In this document: positions 11,195 to 16,605 of the stretch, one piece after another
Numbering within the stretch: position 1 is the stretch's first letter
How the letters are laid out: every line of letters begins with the position of its first letter
Origin: Candidatus Zixiibacteriota bacterium
GTDB lineage: Bacteria > Zixibacteria > MSB-5A5 > GN15 > FEB-12
DNA: 33,945 bases
Reading direction: 5' to 3'
NCBI GenBank assembly: GCA_034439475.1
Contig: JAWXAN010000045.1
Location: 1-33,945 of the forward strand
Program-made: the position numbers and the translations under genes
Notes under the pieces: generated by a model
Database searches by the model: none
What the model was told of the DNA's origin: nothing
What the model saw: the letters and a program-made list of their open reading frames with translations, nothing else

Positions 11195-11212
11195 AATTAC
11201 CTTAAGGTAATT
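11195..11212. promoter_or_regulatory. DtxR/MntR-type operator, 18-bp perfect palindrome
   Basis: AATTACCTTAAGGTAATT is a perfect 18-bp palindrome centred on CCTTAAGG, the core found in operators of Mn/Fe-responsive DtxR-family repressors such as Bacillus MntR. Its place just downstream of the TATAAT box suits repression by blocking RNA polymerase. The operon encodes two candidate proteins that could bind it: the free regulator at 12178 and the domain fused to the permease at 14438. A second, imperfect repeat, CGTAATTTACG, follows at 11221-11231. Confidence 0.75.
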
Positions 11213-11241: not shown

Positions 11242-12165
11242 ATGAATGAATACGGAAGCAAACAGAATGATAACTCGAAGACAAAAGAAATCAAAATAGC
11301 TGGCAGGATTACCTTGGCGCTGATTATCTGTGTTTTGGGGGGCGGTGTTGGGCTGCCTCACACTCTACTCGGAGCGGACCGAACAGCCTATACAATAAAA
11401 GCCCCAACGCCTGATTCTCTGCTGAGAGACCTCAGTACTGACCGGCCGGACAAGACGGAGAGCCCCTATACTGTCGATGCCGGCCGGATGCAACTCGAAG
11501 TCGACCTGCTGAGCTACAGCCATGACCGGCCATCCGAAGGAGCCGACCAAACGCGGGTGACGAGTATCGGCCTCGGTATAATGAATCTCAAACTTGGATT
11601 GCGGCATAATCTTGATATTCAGTTGATCCTGCAAACGTACCAGAGGCAAAGTGTGAAAACTCCGAGCCTTGGCGTAAATGAGCAACTCTCTGGATTTGGC
11701 GACATAGTGATTAGGGTGAAGCGAAATCTGTGGGGGAACGACGGCGGACGGGTTGCATTTGGGGTCATGCCATTCATTTCCCTTCCCACGAGCGGCTCAG
11801 AACGCGGGAGTGGGAATGTCGAAGGAGGCGTGATTTTCCCACTAGCTGTTGGACTGAGTGACAAGTGGGGAATGGGACTTATGGCCGAAACCGATTTGGT
11901 TCGTAACGGAGCCGACGACGGCTATGACCTCACTTTGATAACCTCGGCTACCATAAGTCATAGCCTTTCCGATGCCTTGGGCGCATACGCCGAACTTTTC
12001 AATAAATCAAATGCCGATGTTGCAACACCGCGAGTAACGACCGGCGATCTTGGACTGACCTATGGCGTCAGCGGCAATCTCCAGCTCGACGGCGGAGTCA
12101 ATATTGGCCTGACAAAGTCAGCGGAGAACATAAATCCATTTTTGGGATTCAGTAGTCGATTTTAA
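11242..12165 (+). CDS. Outer-membrane beta-barrel transporter (PF13557-like), first gene of metal operon
   Basis: A 307-residue protein with a cytoplasmic lead of about 20 residues, a hydrophobic signal segment (RITLALIICVLGGGVGLP), then STDRPDKTESPYTVDAGRMQLEVDL. That opening, followed by alternating beta strands with G-rich turns and a C-terminal phenylalanine (GFSSRF), marks the phenol_MetA_deg/transporter family of outer-membrane barrels. Family members are poorly characterised and are named after a presumed role in aromatic uptake. Here the gene has a strong GGAGGG 6 nt before ATG, stands directly behind a DtxR-type operator and 12 nt ahead of the regulator gene, which suggests an outer-membrane route for metal or metal complexes. 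That role is inferred from position only. No TonB box was recognised. Confidence 0.8.
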   Translation: MNEYGSKQNDNSKTKEIKIAGRITLALIICVLGGGVGLPHTLLGADRTAYTIKAPTPDSLLRDLSTDRPDKTESPYTVDAGRMQLEVDLLSYSHDRPSEGADQTRVTSIGLGIMNLKLGLRHNLDIQLILQTYQRQSVKTPSLGVNEQLSGFGDIVIRVKRNLWGNDGGRVAFGVMPFISLPTSGSERGSGNVEGGVIFPLAVGLSDKWGMGLMAETDLVRNGADDGYDLTLITSATISHSLSDALGAYAELFNKSNADVATPRVTTGDLGLTYGVSGNLQLDGGVNIGLTKSAENINPFLGFSSRF

Positions 12166-12177
12166 CATGAAAATTGT

Positions 12178-12681
12178 ATGAAAGAAATCGCAAGTACACT
12201 CACTGCGGCGCAGCAGGATTATCTTGAGACCATTTACCGGATGGAACGGGCCAACAATGTTGATAATGTTCGTGTGACCGATATCGCCGCCGAGCTCGGG
12301 ACGCGGCTACCGACTGTCACCCGCACAGTCACAAAACTTACCCAGTTGGGATTGCTTCGCCATGACCATAGACAGGAAGTAGACCTGACAGCGGCAGGGA
12401 GGAAAATCGCTCAGGATGTGGTACATAGACATGACGACCTTGTATGCTTTTTCACCGACATACTTGGACTATCTCCAAAGCTTGCTGAAATTGATGCCTG
12501 CCAGATTGAACATGGTATTTCCGCCAAGACCGCACAGCGACTGCATGAGTTCATTGAATATATGAGAACGCTCTCCGAAGAAGAGCGCACAATAATTACT
12601 GGTTTCCAGAAGACGGCTTCGCGGGGGGAATCGGATTTCAAAAATCTTCCGGCCAAAAAGGTCAGCGGCTGGCGAAGCTAA
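12178..12681 (+). CDS. DtxR/MntR-family metal-dependent repressor (two-domain)
   Basis: A 167-residue regulator with a winged helix (about residues 8-72, recognition region TRLPTVTRTVTKL) and the metal-binding/dimerisation domain; it lacks the SH3-like third domain of DtxR. Candidate metal ligands by alignment are D14 and E17 (AQQDYLETIY), H85 (VVHRHDDL), C108, E111 and H112 (DACQIEH). D14, E17 and H85 resemble MntR, while C108 falls where MntR has Glu99 and DtxR/IdeR has Cys102, so the metal, Mn or Fe, cannot be told from sequence. The gene lies between the barrel (12-nt gap) and the substrate-binding protein (31-nt gap) and very likely controls its own operon through 11195-11212. Confidence 0.93.
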   Translation: MKEIASTLTAAQQDYLETIYRMERANNVDNVRVTDIAAELGTRLPTVTRTVTKLTQLGLLRHDHRQEVDLTAAGRKIAQDVVHRHDDLVCFFTDILGLSPKLAEIDACQIEHGISAKTAQRLHEFIEYMRTLSEEERTIITGFQKTASRGESDFKNLPAKKVSGWRS

Positions 12682-12712: not shown

Positions 12713-13648
12713 ATGAAACAGTATCACATACACAACACATTTCTGTCTCTGCTATTAATTTTGGCCGCTGTCACGGGAGGTTGCGCCAAAAATGATCAGA
12801 CCGCCGCGAAAGAAAAGCTTTCTATTGTTACGACAACGGGGATGATTGCCGATGCGGCCTCAATTATCGGCGGTGACAATATCCAAGTGACCGCGCTGAT
12901 GGGGCCGGGTGTGGACCCGCATCTTTACAAAGCGACAAAAGGAGACGTCGATCAGCTCGAGACGGCGGATTTGATACTGTACAATGGCCTCCATCTCGAA
13001 GGCAAAATGGTCGATGTCTTTGAGAACATGTCGAAATCAAAACCAACAGTCGCAGTGGCGGCCGTAATTCTGGATTCAGAACTCCGCCATCCGACCGAAT
13101 TTCAAGGACATCCCGACCCGCATGTCTGGTTCGATGTTTCACTCTGGCGGATGGCCGTCGGAGCGGTAGCTTTCGAAATTGCTCAGCTTGATTCTGTAAA
13201 TCGTCCCCTGTATCATGAACGCGCTACGGTCTATCTTGACTCCTTGACCCAGCTTCATCAGTGGGTGCAGGAACAGATGGCAACAATTCCCGAAGACCAG
13301 CGAATTTTAGTTACCGCGCATGATGCCTTCGGCTATTTTGGCCGCGCCTATAATATTGAAGTGCGGGGTCTGCAGGGGATTTCAACTGTCACCGAAGCGG
13401 GCCTCTACGATGTCACCGCTATGGTTGACCTGCTTGTATCACAGAAAATAAAGGCGGTCTTCGTCGAATCCTCAGTGCCTAAGAAAACGATCGAAGCCGT
13501 TGTCGAAGGCTGTACATCTCGCGGGCATAAGGTCATAATCGGCGGAGAGCTTTTTTCCGATGCGATGGGACAGTCAGGCACGCCCGAAGGAACATATCTC
13601 GGGATGGTGCGGCACAATGTCAACACAATTGTCGCGGCGTTGCGATAA
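12713..13648 (+). CDS. troA: Metal ABC transporter substrate-binding lipoprotein (TroA/YtgA/ZnuA cluster A-I)
   Basis: A 311-residue periplasmic binding protein. The signal peptide ends at a lipobox-like AAVTGGC with C24 as lipidation site (the -3 Thr is unusual). The four metal ligands are visible: H70 in VDPHLYK, H137 in PDPHVWFD, H203 in TAHDAFGYFGRAY and D283 in ELFSDAMG. His-His-His-Asp matches Treponema TroA, whereas strict Mn binders such as PsaA have Glu in the third position. The long His-rich loop of ZnuA is missing, so Mn/Zn/Fe selectivity is open. Gene order A-B-C-D matches tro and ytg operons, 14 nt before the ATPase. Confidence 0.95.
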   Translation: MKQYHIHNTFLSLLLILAAVTGGCAKNDQTAAKEKLSIVTTTGMIADAASIIGGDNIQVTALMGPGVDPHLYKATKGDVDQLETADLILYNGLHLEGKMVDVFENMSKSKPTVAVAAVILDSELRHPTEFQGHPDPHVWFDVSLWRMAVGAVAFEIAQLDSVNRPLYHERATVYLDSLTQLHQWVQEQMATIPEDQRILVTAHDAFGYFGRAYNIEVRGLQGISTVTEAGLYDVTAMVDLLVSQKIKAVFVESSVPKKTIEAVVEGCTSRGHKVIIGGELFSDAMGQSGTPEGTYLGMVRHNVNTIVAALR

Positions 13649-13662
13649 GGACACTTCTATCT

Positions 13663-14433
13663 ATGATAAAGAATGACCGTCCAGTTCCAATCGAAGTTCA
13701 TGACTTGACCGTGGCCTATCGCAAAAAACCGGTACTGTGGAATATTGATTTTTCGCTCCCTGAAGGACATTTGATTGGACTTGTAGGACCGAACGGCGCC
13801 GGCAAGTCCACTCTTATTCAGGCCATCATGGGTCTTCTTCCTGTTTTGTCGGGCTATGTTAAAGTCTACGGCCACCCGCTTGAGAAAAACCGTCAGTTGA
13901 TAGGCTATGTACCTCAGCGGGAATCTGTCGATTGGGATTTTCCAGTTGATGCCCTCGATGTTGTGACGATGGGTCGTTATGGTCACATGAACGCATTCGG
14001 AAAACTTTCAAAGCAGGATCGGGAGATTGCGCTGTCGGCGCTCGACAAAGTCGGCATGGCGGATTTTGCGAAACGCCAGATAAGCCAGCTCTCCGGTGGA
14101 CAGCAGCAGCGAGTATTTATCGCAAGGGCCCTTGCTCAGGAAGCATCGGTCTATCTGATGGATGAGCCGTTTGCCGGCGTCGACGCTAACACCGAAAAAG
14201 CGATAGTGGCACTACTCAAAGAACTTAAAGATCGCGGCAAAACCTGTCTGGTCGTTCATCATGATCTGCACACAGTGCGTGAGTATTTCGACTGGGTCAT
14301 GCTGCTCAATATGCGGCTTGTAAAATTTGGCCCGACAGCTGAGATATACAATGAGGAAAATCTCAGGGCGACATATGGCGGAAAACTTGTGTTGCTTGCC
14401 GAAGCCGCAGAGAAACTTATCACGAAATCATAA
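13663..14433 (+). CDS. troB: Metal ABC transporter ATP-binding protein (TroB/YtgB/MntB type)
   Basis: A 256-residue ABC ATPase that powers the permease pair encoded downstream. Walker A is GPNGAGKST (42-50), the Q-loop lies in YVPQRESVDWDFP, the signature is LSGGQQQ (143-149), Walker B is VYLMDEP (163-169), and the H-loop is VVHHDL (H199/H200). The PQRESVDWDFPV segment is diagnostic for the manganese/zinc/iron chelate family 3.A.1.15. The start ATG follows the troA stop by 14 nt, and the next gene's ATG is 4 nt after its stop. Confidence 0.97.
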   Translation: MIKNDRPVPIEVHDLTVAYRKKPVLWNIDFSLPEGHLIGLVGPNGAGKSTLIQAIMGLLPVLSGYVKVYGHPLEKNRQLIGYVPQRESVDWDFPVDALDVVTMGRYGHMNAFGKLSKQDREIALSALDKVGMADFAKRQISQLSGGQQQRVFIARALAQEASVYLMDEPFAGVDANTEKAIVALLKELKDRGKTCLVVHHDLHTVREYFDWVMLLNMRLVKFGPTAEIYNEENLRATYGGKLVLLAEAAEKLITKS

Positions 14434-14437
14434 CCGT

Positions 14438-15754
14438 ATGGATTTTTGGGAATTAACGGTTCGATTTTTTTCATTGGCCGATGCCAATGTTCGGCAGGTA
14501 ATCGCCGGCTCCATTCTTTTGGGCGGAGCCGCTGGAGCTTTGGGCTGTTTTGCCTATCTGCAAAGACGCTCGTTGCTTGGCGATGCACTGGCCCATGCCG
14601 CTCTGCCGGGTGTCGGACTTGCATTTTTAATCGTAGGCCAGAAAGAATTCGTGCCGCTATTACTTGGCGCGACTGCCACCGCGTGGCTTGGCGCGCTTTC
14701 CATTAATGCCATCGACCGCTACACGAAAATCAAGCTCGATGCCGCATTGGGAATTGTTCTGACTGTTTTTTTCGGTTTAGGAATAGTAATCCTGACCCAC
14801 ATTCAAAAAAGCGGGTCGGGATCCCAGGCCGGGCTTGGAAGTTTTATCTTTGGTCAAGCGGCGGCGATGAGCCGCCAGGATGTTGTAGCGCTTGCTGTTG
14901 TGACTGTGTGCATGTTGAGCGTGGTTACAATTGGTTATCGCCATTTCAAATTGGTTTCTTTTGACACAGGATTCGCATTCGCTGTCGGGCTTCCGGTCGG
15001 TAGGCTTCAATTTATTCTGACAACCATGATCGTGTTGGCCGTCACAGTCGGTCTGCAGGCTGTCGGTGTTGTGCTCATGGCCGCAATGTTAATTACCCCC
15101 GCCGCCGCCGCGCGACAGTGGACAGACAGATTGCCGCGAATGCTAATGCTGGCTTCGATATTCGGAATGTTGGCCGGACTTTTTGGTTCATACATATCGT
15201 TTCTTAAGCCGTCACTTCCTACCGGCCCTTGGATAGTTATTGTAGTGAGCGGAATTTTTGCGGTCTCAATTTTATTTTCGCCAAGACGGGGAGTCCTCAT
15301 CCGTATCCTTCGCCACTACCAACATCGCGGCAAAATAACGCGAGACCATTTGGTCAAATCACTCTATAGAGTAGGCATGGAGCGCGAAAATTGGTATGCC
15401 TACTATCCCGTTTCTGAAATAGCTCATATGTGGTCGTTTACTCCCACAGAATTGCGGTCGGGGCTTTCGCAGTTGACGGCGCAGGGATTTCTTGAGCGTG
15501 AAGTCGACATGTATAGGCTAACCCAAAATGGCGTGTCAGCGGGGGCCAGAGTGACGCGTCTTCATCGGCTGTGGGAGGTTTATCTTACTCGCTATCTTGA
15601 ATTGCCGGGCGATCATGTCCATCGCGATGCTGAGGATATGGAGCATATTATCACACCCGAAATGGAAGAGCAGCTAAGTCAGATGCTCGACCACCCTGTC
15701 TTTGACCCGCACCTTCAGCCTATTCCCTATCCTACAGAACAGAAGGGCGTATGA
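14438..15754 (+). CDS. Metal ABC permease fused to a DtxR-like repressor domain (YtgCR-like)
   Basis: A 438-residue fusion. Residues 1-283 are a complete TroC/MntB-type permease with about eight membrane segments and the motifs LLGDALAHAALPGV and MLITPAAAARQ. After a basic linker (SPRRGVLIRILRHYQHRGK), residues about 298-367 form a winged helix and 371-425 a DtxR-like metal/dimerisation domain. Ligand-type residues are intact: H376 and E380 (LHRLWE), H395, E399, E402 and H403 (VHRDAEDMEH). The ending VFDPHLQPIP is standard in DtxR proteins. The same architecture is known in Chlamydia YtgCR, where the repressor half is released by proteolysis. I start at ATG 14438 because an upstream in-frame start would lie 112 nt inside troB. 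It overlaps the next gene by ATGA. Confidence 0.93.
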   Translation: MDFWELTVRFFSLADANVRQVIAGSILLGGAAGALGCFAYLQRRSLLGDALAHAALPGVGLAFLIVGQKEFVPLLLGATATAWLGALSINAIDRYTKIKLDAALGIVLTVFFGLGIVILTHIQKSGSGSQAGLGSFIFGQAAAMSRQDVVALAVVTVCMLSVVTIGYRHFKLVSFDTGFAFAVGLPVGRLQFILTTMIVLAVTVGLQAVGVVLMAAMLITPAAAARQWTDRLPRMLMLASIFGMLAGLFGSYISFLKPSLPTGPWIVIVVSGIFAVSILFSPRRGVLIRILRHYQHRGKITRDHLVKSLYRVGMERENWYAYYPVSEIAHMWSFTPTELRSGLSQLTAQGFLEREVDMYRLTQNGVSAGARVTRLHRLWEVYLTRYLELPGDHVHRDAEDMEHIITPEMEEQLSQMLDHPVFDPHLQPIPYPTEQKGV

Positions 15755-16605
15755 CACCAGACTTATGGATTATCCTGACCGGTATTCTTGCGGCCTCGGC
15801 CTGCGGACTGATCGGATGTTTTTTAGTACTCAGGCAAAACGCCATGCTTGGCGATGCCATCTCCCATGCGGTACTGCCCGGTCTGGTGATAGCCTTTCTT
15901 GTGACATCGAGCAGGAATGTCTTGCCAATGGTGATTGGCGCGGGGGTTATGGGAATCGCGACCGCGTATCTCTCTGAACTGCTGAGCCGAACAGGGCGGC
16001 TCTATAAAGATGCCGCGCTCGGGATAGTTTTCACACTGCTCTTTGCTATCGGTGTCATTTTAGTTTCGATTTTCACTGGGCAAATAGATTTGGATCAAGA
16101 ATGCGTGCTCTATGGCGAGATCGCCTATACGCCATGGGATACATTTACACTGAATGGACAAAGCATCGGACCACGGGCGGTCTGGATTTTGGGCGGGGCC
16201 TTTTTGATCAACCTGATTTTCATTGGACTATTTTATAAGCAGTTAAAGATTTCTTCGTTTGATCCGCGCATGGCCAAAGCGATCGGCGTTTCGGAACGCG
16301 TATGGCACTACGCCCTTATGACAGTCGTATCGCTTACAGTCGTTGCGGCCTTCGAATCTGTTGGAGCCATTTTGGTGGTTGCCATGCTCATAATCCCGGG
16401 CGCGACTGCCTATCTGCTCACCTCGCGTCTGATTGTGATGCTGGCGCTTTCGGTTCTGGTCGGCATCATCTGCGCGGTTGGAGGATTTTTTGCGGCTTCG
16501 TATTTCGATGCCTCGATTGCAGGTTTCATGGCGGTTGTGGGCGGGATTGTTTTTGTGCTTGCGGCGTTCGGCGCAAAATTGGCCCGACGGTTTGCGCGGG
16601 CATAA
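15751..16605 (+). CDS. troD: Metal ABC transporter permease (TroD/YtgD type)
   Basis: A 284-residue permease of the ABC-3 family with about eight membrane segments. It shows GCFLVLRQNAMLGDAISHAV near the N-terminus, KDAALGIVFTLLFAIGV, and AMLIIPGATAYLLT near the C-terminus. It is homologous to the permease half of the preceding gene but has no repressor domain; the two would form the heterodimeric channel. The start codon lies in an ATGA overlap with the stop of the fusion gene. An insertion of about 35 residues after IFTGQIDLDQE (YGEIAYTPWDTF...) is typical of the D-type subunit. Confidence 0.95.
   Translation: MTPDLWIILTGILAASACGLIGCFLVLRQNAMLGDAISHAVLPGLVIAFLVTSSRNVLPMVIGAGVMGIATAYLSELLSRTGRLYKDAALGIVFTLLFAIGVILVSIFTGQIDLDQECVLYGEIAYTPWDTFTLNGQSIGPRAVWILGGAFLINLIFIGLFYKQLKISSFDPRMAKAIGVSERVWHYALMTVVSLTVVAAFESVGAILVVAMLIIPGATAYLLTSRLIVMLALSVLVGIICAVGGFFAASYFDASIAGFMAVVGGIVFVLAAFGAKLARRFARA

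Follow-up and report, generated by a model that had tools for sequence, protein, structure and literature searches.

In this study, we analysed a window of 33,945 nucleotides from a Candidatus Zixiibacteriota genome (contig JAWXAN010000045.1), and found that a perfect palindrome is followed by a PF13557 protein, a stand-alone DtxR/MntR-type regulator, a TroA-like protein (A), an ABC ATPase (B), a permease fused to a DtxR-like domain (C, here CR) and a second permease (D) (Table 1). The order A-B-CR-D given in an earlier note on this DNA is correct, and the stand-alone regulator lies ahead of A, outside the stretch that the note described. In the whole genome, which is 98.7% complete, the DtxR metal domain is matched by two proteins of this operon alone, the fusion and the stand-alone regulator. 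The closest solved relatives of the stand-alone regulator are MntR proteins, and the top NCBIfam match of the ATPase, under its cut-off, is a Mn/Fe ABC ATPase model. The metal site of the stand-alone regulator is a hybrid, with the MntR-like Asp and Glu in helix 1 and a DtxR-like Cys at the position of MntR E99. This Cys is found in 9 of the 35 stand-alone regulators compared below. The PF13557 (Phenol_MetA_deg) protein, located between the operator and the regulator, may belong to the metal operon.

Table 1. Features of the metal-transport operon in the window, and loci elsewhere that encode a related membrane protein
Feature	Position	Strand	Evidence
Perfect palindrome AATTACCTTAAGGTAATT, probable operator of the stand-alone regulator	11195..11212	.	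Conservation and position
PF13557 family protein, first gene past the operator	11242..12165	+	Pfam
Stand-alone DtxR/MntR-type regulator, 167 aa, canonical recognition helix TRLPTVTRTV	12178..12681	+	PF01325 1e-11; PF02742 3.3e-16
TroA/ZnuA-type metal-binding protein (A)	12713..13648	+	PF01297 3.1e-76
ABC ATPase (B)	13663..14433	+	PF00005 3.9e-31
Fused gene, ABC-3 permease and DtxR-like domain	14438..15754	+	438 aa; translation and Pfam
Permease part, residues 1-283	14438..15286	+	PF00950 4.3e-67; PsaC of PsaBC (7kyp), TMt 0.89
Helix 286-316, from last TM segment to winged helix; P282-H304 spacing 22 residues	15293..15385	+	66/67 fusions; pLDDT about 90
Recognition-helix region, residues 335-346; E338 and R340 replace the Ser/Thr contact pair	15440..15475	+	
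Metal-binding/dimerisation domain, residues 362-430	15521..15727	+	Fe_dep_repr_C (PF02742) 2.2e-22; conservation
Second permease (D), unfused; 4-base overlap with the stop of the fused gene	15751..16605	+	PF00950 7.7e-50
TM-DtxR-like-FeoA loci	L210 1470-4771; L220-L225		22-residue spacer, as in the permease fusions

Translation of the fused gene met no internal stop, and Pfam placed the ABC-3 match at residues 17-280 and the DtxR metal domain after it, bearing out the claim that one frame encodes both parts. We located the ligand-type residues H376, E380, H395, E399, E402 and H403, all at the positions given before, and additionally H425 of a DPH motif. The description of the C-terminal part as a full winged helix stands in part: the fold is predicted by modelling, but the DtxR DNA-binding model (PF01325) had no Pfam match above threshold in the fused domain. 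A frameshift or assembly join within the fused gene is ruled out and is not needed, since other phyla, and about 10 relatives within the phylum, have the same single-ORF architecture. We also considered an internal start that would yield the domain alone. In-frame starts occur at residues 270 (GTG), 305 (TTG) and 314 (ATG); the 281-300 linker contains no in-frame start codon, and thus no separate domain product is obvious.

An AlphaFold2 model of the fused protein, built from 30 sequences, had a mean pLDDT of 85 and a pTM of 0.76; it describes a monomer without metal, with low confidence at residues 390-403. Residues 286-316 were modelled as one continuous helix. With Foldseek, the permease part matched PsaC, and the isolated C-terminal domain matched DR2539, IdeR, DtxR, ScaR and MntR. 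The last TM segment ends in a proline that 67 fusions retain, and in 66 of these the winged domain's first helix lies at a distance of 22 residues from it, although the winged domain itself varies in length from 54 to 80. A helical spacer of fixed length speaks against a loose linker open to cleavage, although the protein may still be cleaved. In an unrooted tree, the fused and the stand-alone domains were split by one branch (support 100/99), which is compatible with a single origin of the fused form.

The earlier note proposed a search for the fusion across FCB and PVC genomes, and we found it in Bacteroidota and Planctomycetota in addition to the genomes of the window's own phylum. A degenerate form is present in Bacillaceae, Chloroflexi and one proteobacterial MAG, and a search of plasmids returned mostly plain permeases. 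According to a review (PMC5599777), Thompson et al. 2012 reported orthologous permease-repressor fusions in 11 phyla. Since the fusion is this widespread, its architecture is already known and is not new. The order stand-alone DtxR-A-B-C::DtxR-like-D recurs in 10 clusters of the window's phylum, 17 of Bacteroidota and 8 of Planctomycetota, which form our matched set (n=35); many Planctomycetota fusions have no partner regulator within the cluster. We found no account of the pairing of a stand-alone and a fused domain in the open-access literature.

Two variants were seen among these fusions. The first is in Planctomycetota operons (L182, L183, L190, L191, L193-L199, L043, L069), where both permeases, C and D, bear the DtxR-like domain, so that one transporter could contain two sensor domains opposite each other. 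The other is in permeases of the Geomicrobium/Natribacillus type (L036-L040, L078), which keep the C-terminal domain and have lost its His/Glu metal ligands. As Bacillaceae versions keep the domain without ligands, metal sensing is not universal among the fusions.

For each of the 35 operons that encode both proteins, the stand-alone regulator was set against the operon's own fused domain, so that the same species are represented in both sets. Thr40 and Ser42 of IdeR contact the DNA backbone (PMC8464063). The equivalent positions are of the Ser/Thr type in all 35 stand-alone regulators (with one Ala at the first position), whereas the pair is found in 0/35 fused domains of the matched operons, and in none of a wider set of 78 fused domains, a set that does not include Chlamydia YtgCR. 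The window's fused protein carries E338 and R340 there, and two planctomycete fused domains are missing four residues of the recognition helix.

Pairwise identity showed opposite patterns for the two proteins. Over all 35 operons, the identity of the recognition helix was 0.46 in the stand-alone regulators versus 0.27 in the fused domains, while that of the metal domain was 0.44 versus 0.56. Within the window's phylum, the stand-alone regulators had 0.74 in the recognition helix versus 0.51 in the metal domain, and the fused domains had 0.41 versus 0.73. The equivalents of MntR H77, E102 and H103 and of the HRLWE glutamate are present in 35/35 fused domains, and the other ligand positions are kept in 30-33 of the 35 or replaced conservatively. 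Taken together, the comparison suggests that the fused domain has lost the DNA-reading surface of DtxR proteins. Its winged-helix region is mildly positive in charge (+2.0 against +3.0), and might bind DNA in some other way.

In 703 kb surrounding fused genes, we counted 9 copies of the motif TTACCN4GGTAA, each at the operon of a regulator with a T(R/K)LPTV(T/S)RTV helix; control motifs gave 0-1 matches. The motif was found just upstream of such a regulator in L034, L201, L204, L206, L207 and L208. L205 has a regulator of a different type (27% identity to the window's, helix VKPASVTGMV) and the palindrome TTTAGGTAAACCTAAA; the fused domain of this locus is 61% identical to the window's, despite the changed regulator and operator. 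Sites resembling TTTAGG-CCTAAA adjoin PASV-type regulators in Bacteroidota (L166, L211, L212). Neither site type was detected near the regulator within the stretch examined for L202 and L203, where the sites may fall outside that stretch, because the window's own site is one gene further upstream. The window's genome contains one perfect ATTACCN4GGTAAT site and three places with one mismatch. Across the relatives, the predicted operator type follows the stand-alone regulator and not the fused domain, and the palindrome upstream of the window's operon is probably the operator of its stand-alone regulator.

To explain these observations, we favour, with somewhat better than even confidence, the view that the fused domain, anchored to the membrane on its cytoplasmic side, senses metal for the transporter, with the stand-alone DtxR/MntR-type protein acting instead as the DNA-reading repressor of the operon. 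This reading is preferred because the ligands are kept, the DNA contacts are lost, the geometry is fixed and the adjoining regulator accounts for the operator. When cytoplasmic Mn(II) or Fe(II) is high, metal would bind at the conserved His/Glu site of the fused domain, and the resulting change would pass through the rigid 22-residue helix to the permease, so that import would be slowed or locked by a gating similar to trans-inhibition. Transcription would be controlled separately by the stand-alone regulator acting on the palindrome. We infer the binding of metal by the fused domain, the identity of that metal and the gating of transport by its binding. Sequence comparison shows that the regulators are paired, that the ligands are kept while the signature of DNA contact is lost, that the spacer is fixed, and that the operator tracks the stand-alone regulator.

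The main argument against a transport sensor is the precedent of Chlamydia, where YtgR is reported to be cleaved from YtgCR and to bind its own promoter. If the same applied here, the domain would be cut off the permease, dimerise with metal and repress at the palindrome, alone or with the stand-alone regulator. The architecture and gene order are those of YtgCR, and the fused domain retains the DtxR fold and the metal ligands. However, none of the fused domains keeps the Ser/Thr contact pair, the operator tracks the other regulator, and the spacer is constant in length and modelled as a continuous helix. Furthermore, the reported YtgR fragment of 28-30 kDa is larger than the roughly 17 kDa expected for a domain of this length. 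We thus regard release of a repressor from this permease as unlikely. The earlier note had taken the fused domain for a repressor domain and proposed a test of its binding to the palindrome. We retain from it the YtgCR-type architecture, the tethered domain with its ligands and a likely link to transport, but not the repressor role, since the same operon encodes a canonical DtxR/MntR-type regulator that accounts for the operator, the type of palindrome goes with that regulator, and the fused domain is without the DNA-contact residues of the family.

The fused domain could also form mixed dimers with the stand-alone regulator, or hold it at the membrane, so that the abundance or state of the transporter tunes repression, a logic comparable to the transporter-linked sequestration of a regulator. 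The two genes lie together in the 35 matched operons, their products have a dimerisation domain of the same family (PF02742), and a degenerate DNA surface would give an inactive half-dimer. However, the stand-alone regulator of L205 is of another type while the fused domain is unchanged, which disfavours a specific mixed dimer, and many Planctomycetota fusions lack a partner in the cluster. Such tethering appears a little less likely again than the release of a repressor. The least probable explanation is a structural remnant, or an assembly or stability element of the permease that senses no metal: Bacillaceae and Chloroflexi versions do keep the domain with the ligands lost, but the window's group conserves no other part as strongly as the ligands (35/35 at four positions), and a remnant would not keep them.

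A second protein has a similar layout. In six Bacteroidota genomes and one of the window's phylum, we identified a protein of 340-370 residues that combines a single N-terminal TM helix with a DtxR-like and a FeoA domain; the P..G spacer is the same as in the permease fusions, with 22 residues. The gene of this protein is directly upstream of FeoB (whole or split), with a canonical DtxR beside it or near. A quick tree groups these proteins and the fused domains together; its exact branching is unsure because four odd stand-alone rows fell on that side too. DNA binding has been shown for PgMntR (PMC4805248), a DtxR protein with twin FeoA domains, and therefore attachment to FeoA alone is no argument against DNA binding. 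No account of the TM-DtxR-FeoA protein was found in the open-access literature.

These loci raise the possibility, which we hold tentatively and at slightly less than even confidence, that a portable, repressor-derived membrane metal sensor has been placed on two unrelated importers as a direct gate of transport. The module would consist of a TM helix, the fixed 22-residue helix, a degenerate winged helix and the DtxR metal domain, with ABC-3 permeases and the FeoA protein beside FeoB as its hosts, and would usually be encoded next to a canonical DtxR that performs gene control. What is new here is the evidence that a true repressor accompanies the fused form, that the latter is without the signature of DNA reading, and that it is also found on an iron transporter of an unrelated kind.

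The Chlamydia model, in which a repressor releases itself from the permease, has so far guided the interpretation of permease-DtxR fusions. A fused domain that gates transport would mean that the fold of a transcription factor has been turned into an allosteric metal sensor, which would provide a fast shut-off of Mn/Fe import beside slower gene control, and the annotation of such fusions as repressors would be misleading across several phyla. If the portable module is real, many "permease-repressor fusions" would be regulators of transport and not repressors.

ABC importers with a fused cytoplasmic domain that binds substrate and regulates transport are known from MetNI and ModBC (reviewed in PMC10710835). 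The window's operon is similar in having a putative cytoplasmic regulatory domain, presumably metal-binding, on an importer subunit. In MetNI and ModBC, however, the domain is on the ATPase and has another fold, while here it is on the permease and its inhibitory role is presumed. Within the MntR/DtxR/IdeR/ScaR family, the nearest solved structure to the fused domain is DR2539 (8pvt/8pw0; 31% identity, TM-score about 0.7), and the winged helix followed by PF02742 is common to both. Unlike these proteins, the fused domain is membrane-anchored, has no detected PF01325, carries E338/R340 in place of Ser/Thr, and has no FeoA/SH3-like domain. Chlamydia YtgCR, compared through its reported description and not by alignment, has the same succession of ABC permease and DtxR-like domain in one ORF, the same order A-B-CR-D, and the ligands kept. 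The window differs from it in the second, canonical DtxR ahead of A, and in a fused domain without the DNA-contact signature of DtxR proteins; this signature offers a clear test of where YtgCR belongs.
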